Notes under the pieces: model-generated
What the model saw: the letters and a program-made list of their open reading frames with translations, nothing else
Databases searched by the model: none
What the model was told of the DNA's origin: nothing
Position numbers and translations under genes: made by a program
In this document: piece after piece, positions 2,108-35,680 of the stretch
How positions within the stretch are numbered: position 1 is the first letter of the stretch
How the letters are laid out: each line of letters opens with the position of its first letter
Origin: a virus
Direction: 5' to 3' (one strand)
Length of the DNA stretch: 38,986 bases
IMG/VR virus record: IMGVR_UViG_3300035698_023372
Location: 1-38,986 of that record

Positions 2108-2700
2108 CTTTACAAAGCGGATCAACAAAACCATCTAAAAACAAAATTGATAGTAAAAAACTCTATAAAGCGGCAGAGTTGTTATTAGACGCAATAGAAG
2201 GGGGCAAAAGAAGAGAAGGAACAGAAAGAACTCCAGAAAGAATAGCTCGTGATTGGCCAGAGATTTTTGAAGGCTATAATTATGAACCAAAAGACATTCT
2301 CAACAGAACTTTTGAGGCAGAAAAGTATGATGAGATGATAATAATAAGCACCGATTTTACAAGCACTTGTGAACATCATCTATTACCTTTTAGAGGTAAG
2401 GCTTGGATAGGATATATTCCCAAGAAAAAAATAATAGGTTTAGATAAATTAATTAAACTCGTTTGGATGTTTTCTAAAAGGCTTCAGAATCAAGAAAGAA
2501 TTACCCGTCAAGTAGCAGAATCAATCACGAAAGTCTTGAAACCCTTAGGTGTTATGGTTGTATTAAAGGCTAGTCACGACTGTGTTTCATTAAGAGGAAC
2601 AAAGTCAATTAATAGTATTACTACAACTTCTTCTTGTTTTGGTGTATTTAGAAAAAAAGCAGAAGTAAGACAGGAATTTCTAAATCTTATTGAAAAATGA
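2104..2700 (+). CDS. folE: GTP cyclohydrolase I
   Basis: FolE converts GTP to dihydroneopterin triphosphate, the first step of both folate and 7-deazaguanine synthesis. The 198-residue protein has the zinc ligands Cys89 and His92 in CEHHL and Cys160 in HDCVSLRG, plus the usual helix around QERITRQVAESI. Length and motifs are normal for type IA enzymes. In this operon it most likely feeds preQ0 synthesis for DNA modification. It starts by a four-base overlap with the phosphoribosyltransferase gene and ends by one with the dpdA-like gene. Confidence 0.95.
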   Translation: MTLQSGSTKPSKNKIDSKKLYKAAELLLDAIEGGKRREGTERTPERIARDWPEIFEGYNYEPKDILNRTFEAEKYDEMIIISTDFTSTCEHHLLPFRGKAWIGYIPKKKIIGLDKLIKLVWMFSKRLQNQERITRQVAESITKVLKPLGVMVVLKASHDCVSLRGTKSINSITTTSSCFGVFRKKAEVRQEFLNLIEK

Positions 2701-3512
2701 AATTATATTTTGCTGGATATAGTGCTTATCCAAATGAAGCCAAAAAAGCAGGTTTACAAAACATACTTGAATCTTATTTAAAATTTAAGAATAAAACAGG
2801 TAAAGGAGAGTTTATTCGATGGCATAAAAATAGAGATTTATTAGGAAAAAACATCTTTTTAGATTCAGGAGCCTTTTCTGCTTGGACGAGAAAAATTCCA
2901 ATTGATATTGATAATTATGCTACTTTTGTAAAGAAATATCTCCCTCATTTGGCGGTTTATGCCAACTTAGATGTCATTGGTGATTCTAAAAAAACTGCTA
3001 AAAATCAAGAATATTTAGAGAAATTAGGATTAAAACCTTTAGCAACTTTTCACATCGGTTCGCCTTACTCTGAATTAGAAAAAATGACTAAAAAATATGA
3101 TTATCTTGCTTTAGGAGGATTAGTGGGAGTTCCTTATGCAAGAAGAATAAAGCATCTAGATAAATGTTTTCGTATTATTAGATTAAAATCTAAGGTTCAT
3201 GGTTATGGAGTTGGCGATTTGAAATTAATGTTGCGTTACCCTTTTTATTCAGTTGATAATACTAACTGGATAATGGGAGGGCGAATAGGAGCAGTTTACC
3301 GTTTTGATAAAGAAACAGTTAAATTACAAAGTACATGGTATAAAGATAAGCGAATTTTTGATAGAATAAAGAAGATAGATATTTATAAATTTTTTGATAT
3401 GAAAAACACAGCACATAGAAACCGCACTTTAGAAAATGCTATTATATTCAAAGAAATAGAAACTTTTATAACCCATGTTTGGGAGAAAAGAGGTATTAAA
3501 TGGCAAAATTAA
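2697..3512 (+). CDS. dpdA: DpdA-like DNA-guanine transglycosylase (TGT paralogue)
   Basis: This 271-residue protein has the core pattern of tRNA-guanine transglycosylases in a shortened, diverged form. LDSGAFSAW (Asp56) matches the DSGGFQ substrate loop, ANLDVIGD follows at 89-96, GGLVG (140-144) matches GGLAVG, and HGYGVGD (168-174) precedes VDNTNW, where Asp187 sits at the position of the TGT nucleophile. The C-terminal zinc-binding CxCxxC region of true TGT is absent. That combination, next to folE, queC and queE in a phage, is typical of DpdA, which exchanges guanine in DNA for a 7-deazaguanine base. It overlaps folE by four bases and the ParB-like gene by thirteen. Assignment to a DpdA subgroup is not possible by eye. 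Confidence 0.85.
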   Translation: MKLYFAGYSAYPNEAKKAGLQNILESYLKFKNKTGKGEFIRWHKNRDLLGKNIFLDSGAFSAWTRKIPIDIDNYATFVKKYLPHLAVYANLDVIGDSKKTAKNQEYLEKLGLKPLATFHIGSPYSELEKMTKKYDYLALGGLVGVPYARRIKHLDKCFRIIRLKSKVHGYGVGDLKLMLRYPFYSVDNTNWIMGGRIGAVYRFDKETVKLQSTWYKDKRIFDRIKKIDIYKFFDMKNTAHRNRTLENAIIFKEIETFITHVWEKRGIKWQN

Positions 3513-4793: not shown

Positions 4794-7700
4794 TTTTGTT
4801 ACTGAACAAGATGCGGCCAGACCTTTCAACAAACAACTTTTAATTAAAATCTTCGATAGCGGTAAAGATTTTAAAGACTTCGAAAATCTTGGAGAATACG
4901 AAGAAGTTCTTTATATCGCTGGAATTGGCTCTGGTAAGTGTTTAGCCAAAGGAACTAAGGTTATTAAATATTCAGGGGAAATAGATACTGTCGAAAACAT
5001 AAAATCAGGCGACTTTCTGATGGGTAATGATAGTTCTCCAAGAAAAGTAATTTCTACAACTTCTGGAAAAGAAAAACTTTTTAAGATAACCCCTGTTAAA
5101 GGAGAGTCGTTTATTGTTAATGCTTCCCATGTTCTTTCATTAAAAAGAACCAATAAGGGGATTATTGCTAAAAATGGTAGGAGAGACCAACTTGCTGGTC
5201 AAATAGTGAATTTATCAGTTAAAGACTATCTTCATCTTAGTAAAAAGATGAAAGGGATTCTTAAGTTATGGAGAACAGGAATTAAATTTGATGAAAAGAA
5301 AGTTGATATTGACCCTTATTTTCTTGGGCTATGGTTAGGAGATGGAAATAAACATAATATAGGTATTACAACGCAAGACAAAGAAATTAAAAAAGAAGTC
5401 TACAACCAAGCAAAAAAATTAAATTTGTTTGTAACTGTTAACCAAAATAAAAATAAAACTTGCCCAACATATATTATTACGAGCGGGACTAGATATGGGG
5501 GGTATGGAAGAAATAAAGCATTGGAATCATTTAAGAAATATAATCTGCTTAATAATAAACATATACCATTAGAATATAAAACAAATTCAAGGAAAGCTAG
5601 ATTACAATTATTGGCAGGATTAATAGATAGTGATGGTTATCAAGGAAACAATTGTTTTGAATTTTCCAACAAAAATAAAATATTATGTGAAGATGTTTTA
5701 TATCTTTGTCGTTCATTAGGATTTGCTACTTATTTAAAACGAAGAACAACCAAATGTAGAAGTAAAAAGTTTACTTCCTATCGTATATCAATTAGTGGGG
5801 AGTTATCTAAAGTTCCCAATAGACTCAAAAGAAAACAATGTTCTAAAAGAAAGCAGAAAAAAAATATATTGTTAACTGGTTTCAAAATAGAATCAATTGG
5901 CGTGGGCACATACTATGGCTTTGAATTAGACAAAAACCATTTATATTTATTAGGAGATTTTACTGTTACTCACAATAGTTTTATTTCTTCACTAGCAATA
6001 ACTTATATTATCTATCGCCTTCTTTGTTTAGAAAATCCACAAGCATATTTTAAATTTGCCAAAGGCACTAAGATTGCTTTTGTCAATGTTTCTAAATCAT
6101 TTAGTCAAGCTAAAGACATAGTTTTTGGTGAGATTAAAAATAGAATTGATAATAATCAATGGTTTCAAAACTTTTATCCTCCTGACCCACGTATTAAATC
6201 AAAAATTAGACTGCCTAAAAATATTTTTATTATACCTATAGGCTCAAATGAAGAAGCTCCCCTTGGTTATAATATTTTTGGATCAGTTATTGATGAAGCT
6301 TCATTCCATACTTCAACTAAAGATAAAGACTATGCTGAAGAATCTTACAATCAAATTAAAAAACGTATTCGTTCTCGATTCTTTAGTAGAGGCAAAATGT
6401 TTATTATTACTTCTCCTAGATATGTTTATGATTTTGCTGAAAAGAAATGGCAAGAAGAAGAAAATAATTCTAAAGTGTTTAGACAAAGAACGCCTCTTTG
6501 GGAAGCAATGCCTGAAGAGATGTTTACTGGAGATAAATTTGATTTAGGCAATTATATTCCTAGATATCAAGGTAAAAAATTAATGGTGCCTACCGAATAT
6601 GAAGACGAATTTAAACAAAATCCTGAAAGAGCAATGCGAGATTATGGTGCCGAGCCTTCAATGGCTATTCAAGGCTTTTTTAATGACGCAAATACAATTC
6701 CTGCCAATGCTAATCCTAATAGAAAACACCCTATTAGCCCTAAAACTGGCGAATTTTCTGAATGGTTCTTTAACTTAAAAAGTAGTGAGAATTTTGATAC
6801 TGATAAGCGATTTATTCATATCGATTTAGGATTAAATAAAGAAGGGAAAGGTGACTGTGCTGGTTTTGCTATGGGGAAATTTAATGGTTGGGTAGAAGCA
6901 AAAAGCTCTGAGGGTAAGATTGAGAAACGCCCTAAAATCTTTATTGACTTTATGTTAAAAATAGAAGCAAAACCAAAAGACGAAATACAATTTGAGGATA
7001 TTAGAAAATTAGTTTATAAATTAAGAGACATTGGTTATAATATTCATAAGGTAACTTTTGATGGATTTCAATCGGTAGATAGCGTTCAAACTTTGAAATC
7101 AGCAGGATTTAATGCTGACTTTTTTTCAGTAGATAGAAAACCAGAACCATATTACACTCTTAAATCTGCCCTTTTAGACAAAAGATTAGATTATTATCAT
7201 TACCGCCCATTAATTGAAGAATTACAACAATTAGAAGAAGTTAGAGCTTTAAAGATTGACCATCCAAGAGGTGGTTGTTTTACAGGAGAAACCAGGGTAT
7301 CGCTTCTAAATGGAACACAACCTACCTTTAAAGAGTTATCTAAGAACTATTCCAAAAAACCATTCTGGGTTTATACTATTAGGAAAGACGGAAATATTGG
7401 AGCTGGCTTAGCAAAGAACCCAAGAATTACTTATAAGAATGTTGATATAATCGAAATAGAATTAGATAATTTCCAAATAGTTAGATGTACACCAGAACAT
7501 AAGTTTCTACTCTTAAATGGAAAGTATATCGAGGCACAGAACCTAACTACTAGCATGTCTTTGATGCCACTTTACAGAGTGGTGAGTAATAAGGGGGGGT
7601 GGAAAGATTACGAAAGATTTTGGAATCCAAAGACAAAAAAGAGATTGTTGACCCATCAAGTGATATTTAGACAATTTAACAAAGAACTAAATGAAATTAC

Positions 7701-8130
7701 CCATCATAAAGATGGCAATAAAAGAAACAATACACCACAAAATTTAAACGGATTATCCAGATATGAACATGGCAGTCACCATACCAAGAAACGTCACAAG
7801 GAAGATACAGAATATCATAGGAAGGTAGTTGGGGCTACAAGTAGGTATGTCAAGAGTAAATTGGGAAGGGAAAATTCACGGCTTAATATGATTAAAGTAA
7901 ATAAAAGACAATATCCACTCAGAGGAGCAAAGAGTAATCACCATATTCTATCTATTAGAAAAGGTGGCAAAATGGATGTATATGATTTAGAGGTAGAAAA
8001 AACTGGCAATTTTGCTTTATCGGCAGGGATATTCGTTCATAATTCAAAAGATGTCGCTGACGCAGTTGCTGGAGTTTGTTATCATTGTGCCCAAGGAGTA
8101 CCAGGGCGTGGTTTTAAAATTGTAGGTTAA
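4648..8130 (+). CDS. terL: Terminase large subunit carrying two inteins
   Basis: The 1160-residue precursor would splice to about 558 residues, a normal TerL length. The ATPase P-loop GIGSGK (92-97) is interrupted by intein 1 and resumes as SFISSLA at 444. Walker B is VIDEAS with Asp549 and Glu550. The RNase H-like nuclease shows IHIDLG (Asp726) and VTFDG (Asp805). Its last motif GGSKDVADAV is split by intein 2 between Gly876 and Ser1133, and the catalytic-type aspartates 1135 and 1138 follow. TerL packages DNA into proheads and cuts concatemers. Removal of both inteins would be needed to form the ATPase and nuclease sites. The ATG at 4648 is used; an in-frame ATG at 4768 is possible. Confidence 0.93.
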   Translation: MTKLLLSTPFEKFLSNANLKELATLEFLASHPEYQHKPVTMREFLENPNFVTEQDAARPFNKQLLIKIFDSGKDFKDFENLGEYEEVLYIAGIGSGKCLAKGTKVIKYSGEIDTVENIKSGDFLMGNDSSPRKVISTTSGKEKLFKITPVKGESFIVNASHVLSLKRTNKGIIAKNGRRDQLAGQIVNLSVKDYLHLSKKMKGILKLWRTGIKFDEKKVDIDPYFLGLWLGDGNKHNIGITTQDKEIKKEVYNQAKKLNLFVTVNQNKNKTCPTYIITSGTRYGGYGRNKALESFKKYNLLNNKHIPLEYKTNSRKARLQLLAGLIDSDGYQGNNCFEFSNKNKILCEDVLYLCRSLGFATYLKRRTTKCRSKKFTSYRISISGELSKVPNRLKRKQCSKRKQKKNILLTGFKIESIGVGTYYGFELDKNHLYLLGDFTVTHNSFISSLAITYIIYRLLCLENPQAYFKFAKGTKIAFVNVSKSFSQAKDIVFGEIKNRIDNNQWFQNFYPPDPRIKSKIRLPKNIFIIPIGSNEEAPLGYNIFGSVIDEASFHTSTKDKDYAEESYNQIKKRIRSRFFSRGKMFIITSPRYVYDFAEKKWQEEENNSKVFRQRTPLWEAMPEEMFTGDKFDLGNYIPRYQGKKLMVPTEYEDEFKQNPERAMRDYGAEPSMAIQGFFNDANTIPANANPNRKHPISPKTGEFSEWFFNLKSSENFDTDKRFIHIDLGLNKEGKGDCAGFAMGKFNGWVEAKSSEGKIEKRPKIFIDFMLKIEAKPKDEIQFEDIRKLVYKLRDIGYNIHKVTFDGFQSVDSVQTLKSAGFNADFFSVDRKPEPYYTLKSALLDKRLDYYHYRPLIEELQQLEEVRALKIDHPRGGCFTGETRVSLLNGTQPTFKELSKNYSKKPFWVYTIRKDGNIGAGLAKNPRITYKNVDIIEIELDNFQIVRCTPEHKFLLLNGKYIEAQNLTTSMSLMPLYRVVSNKGGWKDYERFWNPKTKKRLLTHQVIFRQFNKELNEITHHKDGNKRNNTPQNLNGLSRYEHGSHHTKKRHKEDTEYHRKVVGATSRYVKSKLGRENSRLNMIKVNKRQYPLRGAKSNHHILSIRKGGKMDVYDLEVEKTGNFALSAGIFVHNSKDVADAVAGVCYHCAQGVPGRGFKIVG
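4939..5976 (+). other. Intein 1 of TerL, with LAGLIDADG endonuclease
   Basis: Residues 98-443 of the precursor (346 residues). The element starts with Cys98 directly after the P-loop lysine. It has an N-terminal splicing block CLAKGTKVI, a block B-like VNASHVLSL, and ends with VTHN before Ser444, the canonical His-Asn/Ser junction. Two LAGLIDADG-type motifs, FLGLWLGDG (near 225) and LLAGLIDSDG (near 322), mark a homing endonuclease. The frame is open throughout and flanking residues rejoin as GSGKSF, a perfect Walker A. It looks splicing-competent. Confidence 0.93.
7276..8043 (+). other. Intein 2 of TerL, with HNH endonuclease
   Basis: Residues 877-1132 of the precursor (256 residues). It starts with Cys877 in CFTGETRVSLL, has the block B motif CTPEHKFLL with the usual Thr and His, and ends with IFVHN before Ser1133. 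The insert between the splicing halves contains THHKDGNKRNN and a following Asn/His region, typical of HNH homing endonucleases rather than LAGLIDADG. Removal rejoins PRGG to SKDVADAV, the conserved last nuclease motif of TerL. All recognised splicing residues are present. Confidence 0.92.
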
Positions 8131-10388: not shown

Positions 10389-10709
10389 ATGGCAATAAAA
10401 CAGGTTAAAACACCTAAACCTAAAGAAGAACAACAAAAGCCTTTATTGCAAATTACTTTGCCGACGTCAGCTGATATGAACCCAAAGTCGCCATTGTCAA
10501 TTGGGCAACATAATTCTTGTGCTCAGAAAAACTTTAAACAAGTAGCCGATTTGATATTAGCAATTATTAATAATCAAAAATTAATGGGTTTAGCTATTAC
10601 TGATTTAGATAAGAAAATTAAAGAATTACAAAAAAACATGAAGATAGTAAGTAAAAATATAAGAGAATTTATAAAAGAAAATAAAAATGAACCAATTACC
10701 AAATCCTAA
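10389..10709 (+). CDS. Hypothetical helical protein
   Basis: This 106-residue protein has a Lys/Pro-rich first 25 residues and a C-terminal amphipathic, probably coiled-coil segment (DLDKKIKELQKNMKIV). No catalytic motif is recognised. The ATG at 10389 lacks a Shine-Dalgarno sequence, which is unusual in this window. The end overlaps the protease gene by 23 bases. It may be a small virion or scaffolding-associated factor, but that is a guess from location. Confidence 0.6.
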   Translation: MAIKQVKTPKPKEEQQKPLLQITLPTSADMNPKSPLSIGQHNSCAQKNFKQVADLILAIINNQKLMGLAITDLDKKIKELQKNMKIVSKNIREFIKENKNEPITKS

Positions 10710-11346
10710 TATTAAATTAAAAGAAGCCTTTGGGCTCGATGTTTTCAAAGAACGTCTAAGAAAAAGAGAAATTTGGATTAACGGAGTAATCGATGAATCT
10801 TTAGTTGAAAAGCTTTACGTTCATCTAATTAAACTTCAAGAAGAATCTCAACAACTTCCTATTATTGTAGTAATTAACTCTAATGGCGGTCATTTTTATG
10901 AGTCAATTGTCGGTACTGATGTCATGGGAACAATTGAACCTGTTGTTAAAACAATTGCTATGGCTAGTGCTGTTTCAGGAGGTTTTATTCTTTTTATGGG
11001 TGGTCAAGAAAGAATTTGCCATGATTATACTAACTTAATGATGCACTCAGTAGGTTTCGGTATAGCAGATAAAGTTCCTGATATTGAAGCTAGAGTTAAA
11101 TACATTAAAAACGTTCAAAAGAAAATGGCTAGATTTTTTTCTTATCAAACTGATGGCAAAACAACTCCAGAATATTGGGAAAAATTGTTTGAAAGTGGGA
11201 AAGATAAATGGTTTTCAGTAGAAGAAGCAGTAAAATTAGGAATTGTTCACAAAGTTATTAAACGTAAAGAGATGATTAATCCAAATTCTCAAACTCGACC
11301 TAGATATACTTGGGATTTAACAGATATAGCCAGGAGTCAACAATGA
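10687..11346 (+). CDS. ClpP/SppA-like serine protease
   Basis: This 219-residue member of the ClpP/crotonase fold has the INSNGG oxyanion-type turn at 63-68. A probable nucleophile Ser97 sits in AVSGGF (closer to SppA than to classic ClpP), a catalytic-type His120 in LMMHSVG, and the family signature WFSVEEAVKLGIV near 175-187. Many phages use such proteases next to the portal for prohead maturation. Here a separate S78-type prohead protease-scaffold gene also exists, 23 kb downstream, so the division of labour is unclear. It may cleave head proteins or have another role. Confidence 0.82.
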   Translation: MNQLPNPNIKLKEAFGLDVFKERLRKREIWINGVIDESLVEKLYVHLIKLQEESQQLPIIVVINSNGGHFYESIVGTDVMGTIEPVVKTIAMASAVSGGFILFMGGQERICHDYTNLMMHSVGFGIADKVPDIEARVKYIKNVQKKMARFFSYQTDGKTTPEYWEKLFESGKDKWFSVEEAVKLGIVHKVIKRKEMINPNSQTRPRYTWDLTDIARSQQ

Positions 11347-12988: not shown

Positions 12989-13060
12989 ATGGCTAGAAAA
13001 TCAGGCAAAGGCGATAAGCCCAAGCGAGAAAAAAAGAAACCAAAGAAGAAAAAAAAATGA
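12989..13060 (+). CDS. Lysine-rich micro-protein (23 aa)
   Basis: A 23-codon frame has one of the strongest ribosome sites in the window (AAGGAGG, five bases before the ATG at 12989). Its TGA overlaps the ATG of the next gene as ATGA. The product starts MARKSGKGDKPKREK and ends in a near-continuous lysine run. Possible roles are DNA or RNA binding or charge neutralisation in the head. The coupling and ribosome site make translation likely. Confidence 0.6.
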   Translation: MARKSGKGDKPKREKKKPKKKKK

Positions 13061-13518
13061 GTTATCCAAGTTTTGACGAAGCTTATAAAAGCGGTAGTGA
13101 GGCAGAAGATGAGGTTTTGGAAATTATCCAAAAAAAATATCCTCGTGCTCATAGAACGAAAGGGTATTTCAAAGAATATGATATTTATGTACCAGAAACT
13201 GATGACAAAATTGAAGTTAAGAGAGATAAATGTGCCGTTGAAACGGGCAATTTTTTCGTTGAAACAATGTATGATGATAAACCATCGGGAATTGAAACAA
13301 CAGAATCAAGTTTTTGGGTTTGGGTTGATAACGAATTAACTATTTGGATTCGAACAGAAGCCTTGAGATACCTAATTCAAGACAAAAAAGGAATTACTTT
13401 TGAAGCAAATGGGAAAAAAAGTCGAGGCGGGAAAATAATAGGAAGAGAAGAATTAATATTTAGTCAATATGTGAATTGCTATGAAAGACCTAGTCAGCAT
13501 CATTTGCCCAACTTATAA
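13057..13518 (+). CDS. PD-(D/E)XK-like nuclease fold protein
   Basis: The 153-residue protein has the pattern of a restriction-endonuclease-like core: a Glu in GSEAEDEVLEII (near 13-24), an Asp in EYDIYVP and the EVK of KIEVKRD (near 51-57), followed by strand and helix. Family members cleave or bind DNA (phage endonucleases, resolvases). Residues ESSFWVWVDNELTIWI form later strands. It overlaps the intein-bearing glycosyltransferase gene by 38 bases. The exact substrate is unknown; a role in DNA processing or as a homing-associated nuclease is speculative. Confidence 0.6.
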   Translation: MSYPSFDEAYKSGSEAEDEVLEIIQKKYPRAHRTKGYFKEYDIYVPETDDKIEVKRDKCAVETGNFFVETMYDDKPSGIETTESSFWVWVDNELTIWIRTEALRYLIQDKKGITFEANGKKSRGGKIIGREELIFSQYVNCYERPSQHHLPNL

Positions 13519-15253
13519 TAAAATTGAGTTTCTAAAACAGATGATGAAATCTATTGAGAAAAATACTCAATGGCCATTTGAGCTTATTATTGTTGATAAT
13601 GCCTCTAACGACGGCACTCAAGAATATGTGCTTAATGCTGGCTTTAAAATGAAAGGGCAATATCTTAGAAATGAAGAAAACAAAGGCTTTGCTATTCCCA
13701 ATAATCAAGGAGTAGAAGTAGCTAAAGGCAATTTTCTCTGTTTTCTAAATAATGACACAATAGTAACTAAAGGATGGTTGACAGCAATGATGAATGTTTT
13801 CAGTGAAGAAAAAGCCTGTGGGATTATTGGAGCTCGTCTTGTTCACCCTGGTAAAGGAACTATTCAACATGCAGGTATTATTGAACATACCTCTTCTAAA
13901 TTGCCTGACCATATCTATTTTAAAAAGCCGATGGATTATTCTTTAGCGATGATTAGAAAGCAGTATTTCGCTGTTACTGGGGCTTGCATGGTTACCCCTA
14001 AAACTCTTTATGAGGAATTAGGAGGATTTGATGAGCAATTTTGGTGTGGATGGGAAGATATGGATTATTGTTACGATAAAGAAACTCAAATAATGACTAA
14101 GAATGGAATAAAGTATTTAAAAGATATTACCTTATTAGACGAAGTAATGACATATAACAATGATACAAATGAGATTGAATACCAGAATCCAATTAGAACA
14201 ATTAAGAAGAAAGAAAAAGAATTGCTTTCGTTTAAAAATAAACGAGTAGATATACAATGTTCAAGGGACCAAAAGTTATTAGTTGGTTATTTTAGGAAAG
14301 AAAAAACAAGAGGTTTAAATTTTAAAGAAGTTGATTTTATTAAAGCTGGTGATTTAGAAAAGAAACTATGGAATAGACAGTCTAGATATTTTATAAGAAC
14401 TGCCAATGGCAAATGGAATGGTAATAATAGAATAATTGAGATTAATGGAAAATCATATAATACAGATTTATTTGTTAAATTATTAGCATGGTATCTATCA
14501 GAAGGGTGTGTAAATCATTCTGATAAGATTAAATATAACTATGGAATAAAAATCTATCAAAACAAGAAAGAAAATTATACTGAAATAGTAAAACTTGTTT
14601 CTGATTTAGGATTTAAACCTAAATGTTATAAAAATGTAGTTGTTTTCTATGATAAAGATTTATATTCATATTTAAAATTATTTGGAAAATCTGATAAGAA
14701 ATATATACCTGATAATATAAAATCTCTGCCAATTGAATATCTTAATGAATTTATCAGGACATACATTAAAGGTGATGGTTCAATTAAAAAGAATGGCAAC
14801 TTTTCTTTATTTACATCATCAGAAAGAATGAGAAATGATTTAATTGAGCTTTTAATAAAAACTAATCAATCATTTACTTTTCATAAAAATATTGGAAAAG
14901 AAACAAAATTTAAGAATGGAATTTATAAAACAAAAGATTGTTGGGTAATTCAATGTTGTAATCAGAGAAAAAATAATATTGCATTTTTACCGAAACCAAA
15001 AGTAATTGACTATAACGATTATATTTATGATGTAGAGGTTCCAAACCATACAATTTATATTATTAGAAATGGAAAAGGTTGTTGGTCTTCTAATTGTCAG
15101 AGAGTAAGAAGAAAGGGATATCGAATCTATTACGAACCTACATCATTGGTTTATCACTATGAATCAAGAACTGAGGGAAGATATTCAAAAGAAGGTTCAA
15201 ACTTTAGTTTATATATGCAAAAATATGTATTGGGAGAAAATGAAAGTAGTTAA
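13481..15253 (+). CDS. GT2 glycosyltransferase interrupted by an intein
   Basis: The 590-residue precursor would splice to a 248-residue GT-A family 2 enzyme. The first extein has VSIICPTYNK, VDNASNDGTQEYV, the metal-site motif FLNNDT, GTIQHAGI and the acceptor-base motif WEDMDY (191-196). There the intein begins at Cys197. After it, the second extein resumes as CQRVRRKGYRIYYEP at 539, the usual sequence after the ED motif in this family. Inverting GT2 enzymes of this kind often add rhamnose or hexoses. Without splicing the acceptor site would be split, so activity depends on splicing. The start overlaps the nuclease gene, and the end overlaps the next small gene. Confidence 0.9.
   Translation: MKDLVSIICPTYNKIEFLKQMMKSIEKNTQWPFELIIVDNASNDGTQEYVLNAGFKMKGQYLRNEENKGFAIPNNQGVEVAKGNFLCFLNNDTIVTKGWLTAMMNVFSEEKACGIIGARLVHPGKGTIQHAGIIEHTSSKLPDHIYFKKPMDYSLAMIRKQYFAVTGACMVTPKTLYEELGGFDEQFWCGWEDMDYCYDKETQIMTKNGIKYLKDITLLDEVMTYNNDTNEIEYQNPIRTIKKKEKELLSFKNKRVDIQCSRDQKLLVGYFRKEKTRGLNFKEVDFIKAGDLEKKLWNRQSRYFIRTANGKWNGNNRIIEINGKSYNTDLFVKLLAWYLSEGCVNHSDKIKYNYGIKIYQNKKENYTEIVKLVSDLGFKPKCYKNVVVFYDKDLYSYLKLFGKSDKKYIPDNIKSLPIEYLNEFIRTYIKGDGSIKKNGNFSLFTSSERMRNDLIELLIKTNQSFTFHKNIGKETKFKNGIYKTKDCWVIQCCNQRKNNIAFLPKPKVIDYNDYIYDVEVPNHTIYIIRNGKGCWSSNCQRVRRKGYRIYYEPTSLVYHYESRTEGRYSKEGSNFSLYMQKYVLGENESS
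14069..15094 (+). other. Atypical intein in a glycosyltransferase, LAGLIDADG type
   Basis: Residues 197-538 of the precursor (342 residues). It starts CYDKETQIMTKNG and ends GCWSSN before Cys539. Motifs LLAWYLSEG and YIKGDGSIK look like the two LAGLIDADG helices, and block F is IYDVEVPNHTIYII. Two usual splicing residues differ: block B reads CSRDQKLLV, with Gln where His is expected, and the penultimate residue is Ser, not His. Cys1, the terminal Asn and Cys+1 are kept. The flanks rejoin exactly to a family consensus, so the boundaries are secure; efficiency of splicing is uncertain. Confidence 0.9.
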
Positions 15254-30946: not shown

Positions 30947-31663
30947 ATGAAACCCAAAATCTCAGTCATCATTGCTACCTACAACCGCCCTCAACTTTTA
31001 CAAAGGGCAATAGATAGTGTTTTAGCCCAAACTTTCAAGGATTTTGAATTAATTATTGTTGATGACCATTCAGATAAACCCCCAAATATTAAACTTCCAG
31101 ATGATGAAGATAGAGTTGTTGCTATGAGATTGCCCTACAATACTGGCTATTTTGTTAGACCAAGAAACATAGGCATTATGATAGCTAGAGGCGATTACAT
31201 CGCTTATTTAGATGATGATAATGTCTATCTGCCTAATCATTTAGAAGTGCTTTATGAAGCAATTATTAAGAACCAAGCCGATGTTGTTTATGGAGATAGG
31301 GTTTATAAAAGCACCAATCCCAATGAAACTAAATTTATGGGAAAGCAAAGTTACCCGTATGATTTAAAGCAAATTGAGCAAGGCAATTATATTGATACCT
31401 CTGACATTATGCATACTATTCAAGCAATAAACGATATAGGCTACTGGGATATCTTTTGGGAAAGAAAGGCTGATTGGTTGTTAATGGTAAGACTTGGCAA
31501 GGCAGGCATGAAAATAGTTCATGTTCCTGAAATAATTACTGAGTATCATTGGGGGGATTCGAACATAGGGCAGCAAAATCCACTCGGAGGTACTTATCCT
31601 CAAAGCACAAAAGAATCCAGACAACACATTCAAGGTCTAGCTAGAGATGTAAACAAAACATAA
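30947..31663 (+). CDS. GT2 glycosyltransferase (paralogue B2)
   Basis: A 238-residue GT2 enzyme: PKISVIIATYNRPQLLQRAI, ELIIVDDHSD, YLDDDNVYLPNHLE and WERKADWLLM. It is a paralogue of 19524 but ends with GQQNPLGGTYPQSTKESRQ, a tail absent in 19524. The same tail type is seen at the end of the neighbouring HNH gene. Good AAGGAG ribosome site. Probably active; sugar unknown. Confidence 0.9.
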   Translation: MKPKISVIIATYNRPQLLQRAIDSVLAQTFKDFELIIVDDHSDKPPNIKLPDDEDRVVAMRLPYNTGYFVRPRNIGIMIARGDYIAYLDDDNVYLPNHLEVLYEAIIKNQADVVYGDRVYKSTNPNETKFMGKQSYPYDLKQIEQGNYIDTSDIMHTIQAINDIGYWDIFWERKADWLLMVRLGKAGMKIVHVPEIITEYHWGDSNIGQQNPLGGTYPQSTKESRQHIQGLARDVNKT

Positions 31664-31702: not shown

Positions 31703-32335
31703 ATGAAAACAAAAATATGCCCTCAATGCAAATTAGAAAAACCTTATTCAGAATTCTATAAAAATAGAAAGACAAAAAGTGGATTAACTTGTTATTGCAA
31801 AATATGTTCTAACAAAAATCTTTTAAAATATAAAGATAGAAAACCTCTTTATTCAAAACGAACATATCTTAAATATAGGCAGAAAAGGCTTAAACAAAAC
31901 AGGGAGGATACAAAACAAATAAGAAAAAGAAGTTTTGAAATTATTGCAAATGGCGGGAAAATTGAATGTGTTAAAAGTAATAAATGGGGTTGTTGTAAAA
32001 ATAGTTCAGACATAGATTTTCTCTCTTTTGACCATATTTATGGTAATGGATTTAGGCATAGACTTAAAACAGGAGATGGTTCTTCAAGACGATTATATCT
32101 TTGGATTATTAAAAATCCTGAAGAAGCGAGAAATCAATTACAAATTCTATGCATGAACGCACAAATAAAAAAAACAAGATTAAATAGGGAGCATAGAAGT
32201 GCTACTATTGAAAAACCAAAGTGGCATGATGATAATGTTGGGCAACAAAACCCACTTGGTGGAGAATTCTCTAAAATTACAAAGCCATCTAAAGAACATA
32301 TTAGAAATTTAGCTAAAGATGTTCATAAAAAATGA
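31703..32335 (+). CDS. Free-standing HNH endonuclease (A) with a glycosyltransferase-derived tail
   Basis: The 210-residue protein has an N-terminal zinc-ribbon (CPQCKLEKPYSEFYKNRKTK, then CKIC) and a nuclease region with FDHIYGNG and LCMNAQIKK. It matches homing HNH proteins except that the last usual Cys-x2-Cys reads CMNA, so one zinc ligand is lost. From about residue 170 the frame runs into WHDDNVGQQNPLGG and a 40-residue end similar to the C-terminus of the preceding GT2 gene. No ribosome site; see the leaderless promoter. It may be partly decayed. Confidence 0.75.
   Translation: MKTKICPQCKLEKPYSEFYKNRKTKSGLTCYCKICSNKNLLKYKDRKPLYSKRTYLKYRQKRLKQNREDTKQIRKRSFEIIANGGKIECVKSNKWGCCKNSSDIDFLSFDHIYGNGFRHRLKTGDGSSRRLYLWIIKNPEEARNQLQILCMNAQIKKTRLNREHRSATIEKPKWHDDNVGQQNPLGGEFSKITKPSKEHIRNLAKDVHKK
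32210..32335 (+). pseudogene. Remnant 3' end of a GT2 gene fused to HNH (A)
   Basis: Residues 170-210 of the HNH (A) frame align with the end of the GT2 at 30947: NVGQQNPLGG against NIGQQNPLGG, then HIRNLAKDVHKK against HIQGLARDVNKT. WHDDN also matches WHDSN in the GT2 at 19524. About half the residues are identical by eye. It reads as a displaced native end of a GT2 gene; HNH activity does not require it. Confidence 0.65.
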
Positions 32336-34276: not shown

Positions 34277-35680
34277 ATGACAGATACTAAAGTTCAAAGA
34301 TTTAAATTCACTATTCCTATTATCAAAACAAGTATTAAGATTGTTAAAGATAAAAAGGGAAATGAAATTGAAGAAAAATATGTCGAAGGTATTGCTTCAG
34401 GAACAGAATTAGATTTACATGGCGATAGAATGGCACCATCTGCCATTAAGTCAATGGCAAAATCCCTCAAACAACACATTGTTGCCTTAAATGCTGAACA
34501 TGACACCTCTTGGTTAGGAGAATTGGGAGATATTGCCAAATTGGAGGTTTCCGAAAATAATGATTTGGAAATTAAGGCTAAATTAAATGAAATGAGTTCT
34601 TCTAAAGATTTATGGTATGCCTTAACAGAACAGGATAAAAAACTTGGATTATCAATTGGTGGCTATGTTAAAGATTATGAAATGGTTAAAGAAGGCGAAG
34701 GAGAGGATGCACAATGGGTTCGTCTTTATAAAGAGATTGATTTAGATCATATTGCTGTTACTTCACGACCAGCTTATCCTAAATCTTGGGTTTCAAATAT
34801 TGCAAAATCAATAAAAGATAGTGATGAAAAGTTGTTAAAAAAAATACAACCTAAAAAGACAAAAGAAAAAAGTAGACAAAGTCAGAAAGATAAAAGATTA
34901 AGAGAATTAGCAAAGAAAATATCAAGAAAGGTACAGGTAATGGAAGCAGAGTTGCTTCTAGAGTTAACTTACACAGGATTACAATTCTGTGATGAGGAAT
35001 TATTATTAACCATCGAAAGGAGCCTATCCGTGGCAAACAAAAATATCTCACTGGAAGCTGAGGAAGCCAAGAAAAAGGCTGATGCCCAAAAGTCTAAACC
35101 CGAAGACAAAAAGGATGAAATCTTAGCAACCCCAGAGAATGAGCAATCCGAAGAGAAGAAAGCCAAAGGCAAAGAAGGAAAAGAGGAAAAGTCTGATAAA
35201 AAAGATAAAGCCTCTAAGAAATCTAAGTCTAAGGAATCTAAATCTGAGGAAGCGGGTAAAAAGAAAGACGAAAAGGCAGTCGAAAAAGAAGGCAAAACTT
35301 CTGAGTCTGATGAAGAAATCAAGTCTAAAAAAGACGAGAAAAAATCTTCTGAAGAAAAATCAGAGAAAAAACCTGTCGACGCTGAGAAAACAGAACTTTT
35401 AAAAACTGTTAAGGAAATGTCTAACAGTATGAAAGCAGTTCTGAAAAGCAATGAAAAACTCATTGAACGAGTTGAAGAGCTTGAATCTCAACCAGCAAGT
35501 CGTAAGACTGTAGAAATTACAAAGGGAGTTGGCGACGAAGGAGGTAGTGATAAAACTGCCGAAGAACTTCTTAAAGAAAGCAAGAAAAAAATTGCAGAAG
35601 TAAGGAAGGAATATGCCAATGATCCAAACCTTTTCTCTAGGATTCAAAGAATCCGTTCTGATTACGCTGAACGAGCATAA
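34277..35680 (+). CDS. S78-type prohead protease fused to scaffold
   Basis: A 467-residue fusion. Residues 30 to about 175 form an HK97-like prohead protease: YVEGIASGTELDLHGD, a catalytic-type His75 in NAEHD, Ser126 in GLSIGGY and DLDHIAVTSRPAYP at 155-168. From about 185 on it is extremely rich in Lys, Glu and Ser, with helix and coiled coil near the C-terminus (EKLIERVEELE), as expected of a scaffold. The protein would direct prohead assembly and be cut out at maturation. Position directly upstream of the capsid gene supports this. Long reading frames on the other strand here are only a side effect of the codon bias. Confidence 0.87.
   Translation: MTDTKVQRFKFTIPIIKTSIKIVKDKKGNEIEEKYVEGIASGTELDLHGDRMAPSAIKSMAKSLKQHIVALNAEHDTSWLGELGDIAKLEVSENNDLEIKAKLNEMSSSKDLWYALTEQDKKLGLSIGGYVKDYEMVKEGEGEDAQWVRLYKEIDLDHIAVTSRPAYPKSWVSNIAKSIKDSDEKLLKKIQPKKTKEKSRQSQKDKRLRELAKKISRKVQVMEAELLLELTYTGLQFCDEELLLTIERSLSVANKNISLEAEEAKKKADAQKSKPEDKKDEILATPENEQSEEKKAKGKEGKEEKSDKKDKASKKSKSKESKSEEAGKKKDEKAVEKEGKTSESDEEIKSKKDEKKSSEEKSEKKPVDAEKTELLKTVKEMSNSMKAVLKSNEKLIERVEELESQPASRKTVEITKGVGDEGGSDKTAEELLKESKKKIAEVRKEYANDPNLFSRIQRIRSDYAERA

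Follow-up and report, generated by a model that had tools for sequence, protein, structure and literature searches.

An intein with glutamine at the block B histidine position in a family 2 glycosyltransferase gene of a tailed phage

According to the accessible parts of the intein literature, inteins concentrate in proteins of replication, recombination and repair. Sugar transferases are also among the described hosts: an intein lies in CHS2 of Podospora anserina (PMC1635734), four chitin synthase (CHS) inteins are reported as related to glutamate-synthase inteins (PMC5784728), both as given in the accessible text, and chitin synthases are filed as family 2 glycosyltransferases (GT2; table in PMC4632067). 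A sequence-only reading of the DNA examined here had called a GT2 host very rare or undescribed; the published chitin synthase inteins show that a GT2 host is in itself nothing new.

As to the chemistry, the accessible parts of the sources describe the block B His as the most conserved intein residue, whose mutation often blocks step 1 of splicing (PMC4031507, PMC7765530); it activates the N-terminal junction for the first acyl shift, and few natural inteins are without it (PMC4031507, PMC7765530, PMC7664689). Several inteins lacking this His are nonetheless reported to splice, and splicing without the penultimate His is also known (PMC7664689, accessible text). In a DnaB intein from which the block B His had been removed, furthermore, a large residue at position -1 (Leu, His or Phe) is reported to let the shift proceed, with trans-splicing of about 20-30% for the evolved M86 variant and marginal yields for the wild-type intein; that native inteins make use of a bulky -1 residue is, in the authors' words, tempting to speculate (PMC6333167, accessible text).

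Insertion of the intein into the GT2 gene

The DNA examined (hereafter the window) is an IMG/VR virus record of 38,986 bases, the virus being a tailed phage. The gene of interest is laid out as follows.

13481-15253, + strand: GT2 open reading frame with the insert, 590 amino acids, no internal stop
13481-14068, + strand: N-extein, GT2 residues 1-196, ending in WEDMDY with Tyr at -1 (from Pfam PF00535 and uninterrupted orthologues)
14069-15094, + strand: intein of 342 amino acids, Cys1 to Asn342, a splicing domain with a nested LAGLIDADG endonuclease (from Pfam, a structure model and absence from orthologues)
15095-15250, + strand: C-extein, the last 52 GT2 residues, starting with the +1 nucleophile Cys and continuous with the N-extein in orthologues; stop codon at 15251-15253

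The intein thus occupies residues 197-538 of the frame, and the GT2 residues 1-196 and 539-590. The boundaries 14069 and 15094 given by the sequence-only reading turned out to be exact, the open frame, Pfam, the predicted fold and the residues Cys1, Asn342 and Cys+1 all being in agreement, and its spliced length of 248 residues (196 + 52) is correct. The host frame matches Glycos_transf_2 (PF00535, E=2e-24), which confirms its assignment as a GT2 enzyme, while the insert matches LAGLIDADG_3 in two stretches (E=1.9e-9) and Intein_splicing with E=5e-4, the latter below Pfam's own cut-off.

When viral contigs were searched with the whole frame and then with an alignment of the N-extein, the same GT2 was met at loci on six distinct contigs of the collection. 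The order ParB, TerS, TerL, portal, ClpP, GT1, GT2 and the next genes agrees with the window wherever stretches are comparable, several contigs or stretches spanning only part of the region, and we take the six loci as orthologues of the window GT2 on their sequence and gene order. In five of them (L002/L108, L003/L111, L109, L110 and L112) nothing interrupts the junction; these are 87%, 84%, 80%, 80% and 70% identical to the N-extein in protein and 71-83% in DNA. With a slash marking the junction, L002 reads WEDMSY/CQEIRKKGYRIYYEP and L003 reads WEDMDY/CQKVRQKGYRIYYEP, neither having an insert, and in these two records the GT2 lies within single open frames of 249 and 251 amino acids; the query is correspondingly split against them into residues 1-198 and 537-587 or 539-587. 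As the uninterrupted orthologues run continuously across the junction, excision would indeed restore the GT2 sequence, as had been proposed. The insertion is therefore precise, in frame and absent from five alleles, as is asked of a class 1 intein, and the absence from the closest orthologues makes it probable that the intein was gained after these phages had diverged. Position -1 is Tyr in four of the five intein-free orthologues and Leu in L112; L110 has Ala instead of Cys at +1 and could for that reason not splice the window intein.

The NND (DxD-like) and ED motifs of a GT2 are present in the orthologues, and a profile of the five matches chondroitin synthase (E=2e-18), in which GGEDNEF is aligned with the insertion site. 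The intein hence lies just past the GT2 ED motif, so that the position "after WEDMDY" claimed by the sequence-only reading stands; the part of that claim that makes the motif the acceptor base is presumed here, as are the motif roles in this GT2 generally. The spliced product is predicted from sequence to be a sugar-transferring GT2. A structure model of the uninterrupted GT2 (L002) reached a pLDDT of 38.6 and was set aside.

The GC content of the intein is 24.1%, and none of the 35,910 stretches of equal length in the window that do not overlap it is as low; the next lowest value, 27.7%, belongs to a stretch within the first of the window's TerL inteins. Such a low GC content is compatible with arrival from elsewhere or with drift specific to the intein. 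Because the window is a single metagenomic record, and the Gln codon (CAA) discussed below is one base, at the third codon position, from a His codon, one might ask if an intein contig was misjoined into the GT2 gene or a base in block B was miscalled. This is very improbable in our judgement, given that both ends are in frame and exact to the residue, that the +1 Cys is kept, that no near-identical donor was found in the collections searched, and that the Thr of block B is replaced as well, by Ser. No close copy of the intein was seen in viral_contigs, where three pattern matches were all not related and records very near the window may have been excluded.

A model of the intein with six flanking residues on each side (AlphaFold2, 64 sequences) has a pLDDT of 92.7 and a pTM of 0.92. 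Its best fold matches in the PDB are the TliVMA intein (E=3e-18), PI-SceI and then I-DmoI, I-SceI also being among them; among viral folds, the highest-ranking match carries the name minor capsid protein (E=2e-33). The model thus has a predicted HINT fold of the VMA type, and the sequence carries the two motifs of a LAGLIDADG (DOD) homing endonuclease, whose cleavage activity is predicted. A domain of the Hedgehog-like or bacterial intein-like (BIL) kind, which cleaves rather than ligates, might be suggested by a faint resemblance to Pfam Hint_2 (E=0.26) and by BIL entries that appear as late as Foldseek ranks 41, 44 and 47; the nested LAGLIDADG, the C-terminal Asn with Cys+1 and the intact empty alleles, which make this a precise insertion, leave such a domain with hardly any likelihood.

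A small frame directly upstream of the GT2 (13057-13518) belongs to PHROG 13596, of unassigned function, and its L121 copy is 81% identical. From 11811 to 33703 there is a long run of genes resembling glycosyltransferases, methyltransferases and sugar-nucleotide enzymes, some of them checked with Pfam; this run is placed between packaging and capsid genes, and six related contigs share part of it. Within it, the neighbouring frames 30947-31663 (GT2-like) and 31703-32335 share similar tails (GQQNPLGG...), the latter being HNH-like by eye with no Pfam match. Candidates for the head protease are a ClpP-like gene (10687-11346, E=4e-28) and a Peptidase_S78 gene (34277-35680, E=1e-7). Among the frames 996-1661, 2104-2700 and 2697-3512, moreover, are QueC (E=5e-65) and GTP cyclohydrolase I (E=1e-58), which together suggest deazaguanine DNA modification; the third frame of the trio, with no Pfam match, may resemble DpdA.

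Other inteins of the gene lineage and relatives of the window intein

The sixth orthologue of the GT2, L113 (IMGVR_UViG_3300022818_000179), is 66% identical over the first 118 residues, with conserved gene order, and carries an intein of its own.

L113, 2852-3685: other intein in the orthologous GT2, 278 residues, junctions AVGAVG/C...VIMHN/CKLVHPGKG

The host of this intein is the same GT2 orthologue as that of the window intein, but the two sit at different sites and are not related, similarity being detected over the first 31 residues only (35%, E=0.01). The L113 intein, unlike that of the window, has a canonical TDEH block B and an HN end and scores 42.7 bits for Intein_splicing (cut-off 35.8); the segment inside it looks like a PD-(D/E)XK nuclease from its sequence, its Pfam matches to AHJR-like (E=0.009) and Hjc (E=0.09) both being weak. 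As L113 holds an unrelated intein at a different site, the GT2 gene lineage has been invaded twice, which is new for a phage GT2 gene as far as our literature searches go; in the published intein literature, surveyed largely by title and abstract, we found no phage GT2 intein.

The window contains two further inteins, both in TerL.

4939-5976: LAGLIDADG-type TerL intein (IGSGK/C...HN/S)
7276-8043: HNH-type TerL intein (HPRGG/C...HN/S)

Neither is in the TerL of L119, L121 or L122, while the L113 virus (G006) bears the first of them at the same site with 74% identity. Kinship of the GT2 intein with these two was considered and dropped (E>1). In G006 (L118, near 1422), TerL is accompanied on the opposite strand by a fragment that corresponds to TerL residues 774-876; either a rearrangement or an assembly error would account for it.

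Inteins at the same site of other GT2 genes were sought with two degenerate DNA patterns (ED-x-D-x-Cys plus a block A-like start), which demand Cys1 and fixed codons and so miss many variants, the window's own record being excluded. In viral_contigs these gave one and zero stretches, the one (L010) being a chance match in a frame read as portal; in genome_contigs, where the first pattern was used, one match (L011) was obtained with no GT gene visible there. A tblastn search of the phage collection matched 92 records, and 12 of them were inspected: in six, the GT2 match was broken or seemed to run into the intein and no intein was found in the reading frames, and the other six matched the intein and were used as relatives.

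The window intein belongs to a family of phage inteins, most members of which end like [RK]RNGKxxWx[GS]N. The family search matched 420 stretches, 306 of which encode relatives; the best 80 of the 306 were kept, and four loci from a second search and six from phage and plasmid records were added. Among these 90 loci, 86 had both ends and together with the window intein made 87, of which 77 are distinct. L059, L070, L073 and L096 were dropped for want of a clear Cys start or Asn end, and L017 (Aeromonas phage PS1) was compared once, outside the 77. Two of the dropped loci, L073 and L096, appear to be family inteins that end in Gln (WIGQ/T) rather than Asn.

Hosts were assigned for 80 proteins in two sets of 40 with Pfam (E 0.001; 25 of 29 and 25 of 37 families listed), many of the 80 receiving no assignment. 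Among the matches listed, at least four hosts are minor tail or tape measure proteins, at least four are ThyX, at least two NRDD and at least two sugar epimerases; five matches over three families are portal proteins, and MCM helicase, UDP-glucose dehydrogenase, RNA polymerase, ClpX, DNA ligase and others occur singly. Relatives in so many kinds of phage protein form the pattern expected of a mobile family. A glycosyltransferase family of PHROGs was found in two members of the first set of 40; furthermore, the L071 host is a GT-B glycosyltransferase (PF13692, E=3e-12), and the L035 host, similar to a GT1 encoded in the window (phmmer 1.7e-11) but with no match to a Pfam GT family at 0.001, is probably a glycosyltransferase. 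Sugar enzymes therefore recur as hosts of this intein family, and the rarity once attached to the GT2 host is weakened further by these two proteins and by the L113 intein.

A final search, for which the window intein and L061 served as queries, yielded 33 loci, the best six of which are 33-36% identical to the window intein, and its high scorers often sit at head-protein junctions such as PPxHPN/CR. When ten of the proteins were scanned, namely nine picked for such junctions and L050, MuF or minor-capsid domains were found in eight, L129 being just under the curated cut-off, and none in L127 and L050. A tree of 41 rows was then built from 11 new rows of the 33 loci and 30 hand-picked from the 77, leaving out copies, six distant loci and nine without a clear Cys start or Asn end (L125, L126 and L131 among them). 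These three high-scoring relatives have no Cys that we could find near the intein start and may begin with Ser. In the 41-row tree, a clade supported at 99/97 unites the window intein with the MuF-type inteins, and within it the window intein is sister to all other members (88/80); L045 (the UDP-glucose dehydrogenase intein) and L050 fall inside the group. The 77-row tree leaves the place of the window intein without resolution, and in neither tree had the bootstrap converged. MuF-type inteins would hence be the closest kin of the window intein with rough support, and these sequences make it plausible that the intein jumped into the GT2 from a head protein.

Catalytic residues of the intein and its predicted splicing

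The motifs of the window intein, all on the + strand, are the following.

14069-14107, + strand: block A, CYDKETQIMTKNG, with the nucleophile Cys1 (from alignments)
14249-14287, + strand: block B, DIQCSRDQKLLVG, in which Thr B7 is Ser65 and His B10 is Gln68 (from the 77-intein alignment)
14480-14506, + strand: first LAGLIDADG motif LLAWYLSEG with acidic Glu145 (from Pfam; Glu or Asp in this column in 74 of 77)
14750-14779, + strand: second LAGLIDADG motif FIRTYIKGDG with acidic Asp236 (from Pfam; Asp in 75 of 77)
15026-15061, + strand: block F, YDVEVPNHTIYI, with Asp F4 and the block F His present (from the 77-intein alignment)
15077-15094, + strand: block G, GCWSSN, with a penultimate Ser, not His (from the 77-intein alignment)

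Cys1, Asn342, Cys+1, Asp F4, the block F His, Glu145 and Asp236 are all kept, so the N-terminal nucleophile, terminal Asn and +1 residue of a class 1 intein are in place; a class 3 intein, with a Trp-Cys-Thr triad whose Cys is at F4 and no N-terminal nucleophile, was rejected, as Cys1 is present and F4 is Asp. The Thr B7 and His B10 of class 1, in contrast, are Ser65 and Gln68, and the penultimate His is Ser. Both missing His residues bear directly on excision and were overlooked in the sequence-only reading; the loss in block B lowers the certainty of splicing, not that of kinship.

Among the 77 distinct inteins, the block B His column has His in 75 and Gln in two, and the Thr column has Ser in five including the window intein. 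The penultimate residue is Gly in 68, Ser in eight, Lys in one and His in none, while three distant matches outside the 77 (L153, L154 and L157) end in HN. Without correction for kinship, a penultimate Ser goes with Cys at +1 (8 of 8 against 16 of the 69 others; Fisher p=3.5e-5), and so does Asp at F4 (12 of 14 against 12 of 63). Inteins ending in SN do not form one clade, as five changes are needed on the 77-row tree.

The only other Gln intein of the 77 is L061, whose host is probably a terminase large subunit as judged from sequence, with no terminase match in Pfam. It has an open frame, recurs as an identical copy in a second contig (L147), and is 36% identical to the GT2 intein in a pairwise comparison. 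Of the 33 later loci, 29 allowed block B to be read, several of these 29 duplicating rows counted before; they gave 27 His and two Gln, the latter (L139 and L147) being copies of the L061 intein. A single Gln lineage of the window intein and L061 was considered and dropped, the two lying in opposite halves of the 41-row tree, in which L061 is long-branched and the bootstrap unsettled; because of these positions, two separate losses of the His look likelier.

What might stand in for the missing His? A compensating Lys as in Tko CDC21-1 was considered, Lys92 lying in the corresponding region, yet 12 of the 76 other inteins also have Lys in this column and the candidate is not supported. The residue at -1 is Tyr for the window intein and His for L061, and Tyr, Phe, His or Trp occupies this position in 19 of the 77 rows. 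By analogy with the engineered DnaB intein, we tentatively propose that the block B His was traded for the host's active-site Tyr at -1, which would strain the scissile bond and drive step 1. L061 would be a second, apparently independent, Gln intein with a bulky -1 residue, its His being among the residues reported in the accessible text of PMC6333167; two cases make no correlation between Gln in block B and a bulky -1 residue. As far as our literature searches go, the combination of Gln in block B with Tyr at -1 is new for a natural intein, and it would make the open suggestion in the accessible text of PMC6333167 testable with two point changes. If the proposal is true, this would be a natural case of an extein-assisted mechanism for which the sources as accessible offer an engineered intein as the sole example; splicing would then be confined to hosts that supply a bulky -1 residue, and the window intein could exemplify splicing helped by the host protein.

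Alternatively, and this is the main rival, the intein may be in decay: loss of the His would have made it slow, prone to cleavage or dead, with the GT2 inactive or broken, which the phage would tolerate because it has many other glycosyltransferases. Gln at B10, Ser at B7 and the other GT genes nearby fit this idea; moreover, of the His-less inteins named in the accessible text of the reviews (PMC4031507, PMC7765530), one is a degraded pseudogene. A frame intact over 342 codons, however, with the nucleophiles and both acidic endonuclease residues kept and a confidently predicted fold, speaks against decay, as do the open frame of the L061 Gln intein and its identical recurrence in L147; we thus regard decay as unlikely, if a good deal less so than any other alternative. 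A weak N-terminal junction might also make excision slow or dependent on conditions, and the intein would then switch GT2 activity in the course of an infection; conditional splicing has been reported for other inteins in the accessible literature, a catalytic residue is missing in block B and the site is at the ED motif. Nothing points to a signal, though, five orthologues manage without the intein, and the pattern fits a selfish element, so that this role seems improbable.

Taken together, the insert is in our view quite likely a mobile, probably splicing class 1 intein of a large phage family, its splicing being predicted from sequence. The intein would be translated inside the GT2, whose fold would be split at the ED motif until the intein cuts itself out and links the two parts of the enzyme at Tyr-Cys; splicing would proceed without the block B His, perhaps with help from the bulky Tyr at -1. 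The LAGLIDADG endonuclease would cut intein-free alleles in co-infecting phages, into which the intein would then be copied, and the gain by this GT2 after the phages diverged would most likely have been from a MuF-type intein, that is, one of a phage minor-head protein. Splicing, endonuclease activity, homing and the direction of transfer are all put forward here as predictions, to be kept apart from the observed exactness of insertion, intein fold, motifs, empty sites, family kinship and, with rough support, membership in the MuF-type group.

Comparison with known inteins

A GT2 lineage invaded twice at two sites, together with kin of the window intein in capsid, tail, portal and sugar-nucleotide proteins, suggests that the choice of host resembles opportunity in conserved phage genes rather than a special tie to DNA enzymes. 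The closest relatives, the MuF or minor capsid inteins in IMG/VR (such as L125, L128, L132 and L105), are like the window intein of the LAGLIDADG type with Cys at +1 and no penultimate His, although the joint 99/97 clade excludes L125, which is not in that tree; they differ in having a head protein as host, often with a PPxHPN/CR junction, and the block B His in all rows read. The ThyX intein of Corynebacterium phage P1201, annotated as a hypothetical intein, is of the same family and shares the RRNGKxxWxGN end, the LAGLIDADG and the lack of a penultimate His, but is 23% identical and has a host in nucleotide metabolism, a TPNH block B and Cys at F4. The fungal CHS and CHS2 inteins are also in hosts of the GT2 family; they lie in fungal nuclear genes, however, and are likened to the window intein by host family, not by sequence or site. 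In the accessible text of the sources, finally, the Tko CDC21-1 group resembles the window intein in its natural loss of the block B His and its bulky -1 residue, Leu (PMC6333167), whereas Lys compensates there (PMC4031507, PMC7765530) and has no established equivalent in the window intein.
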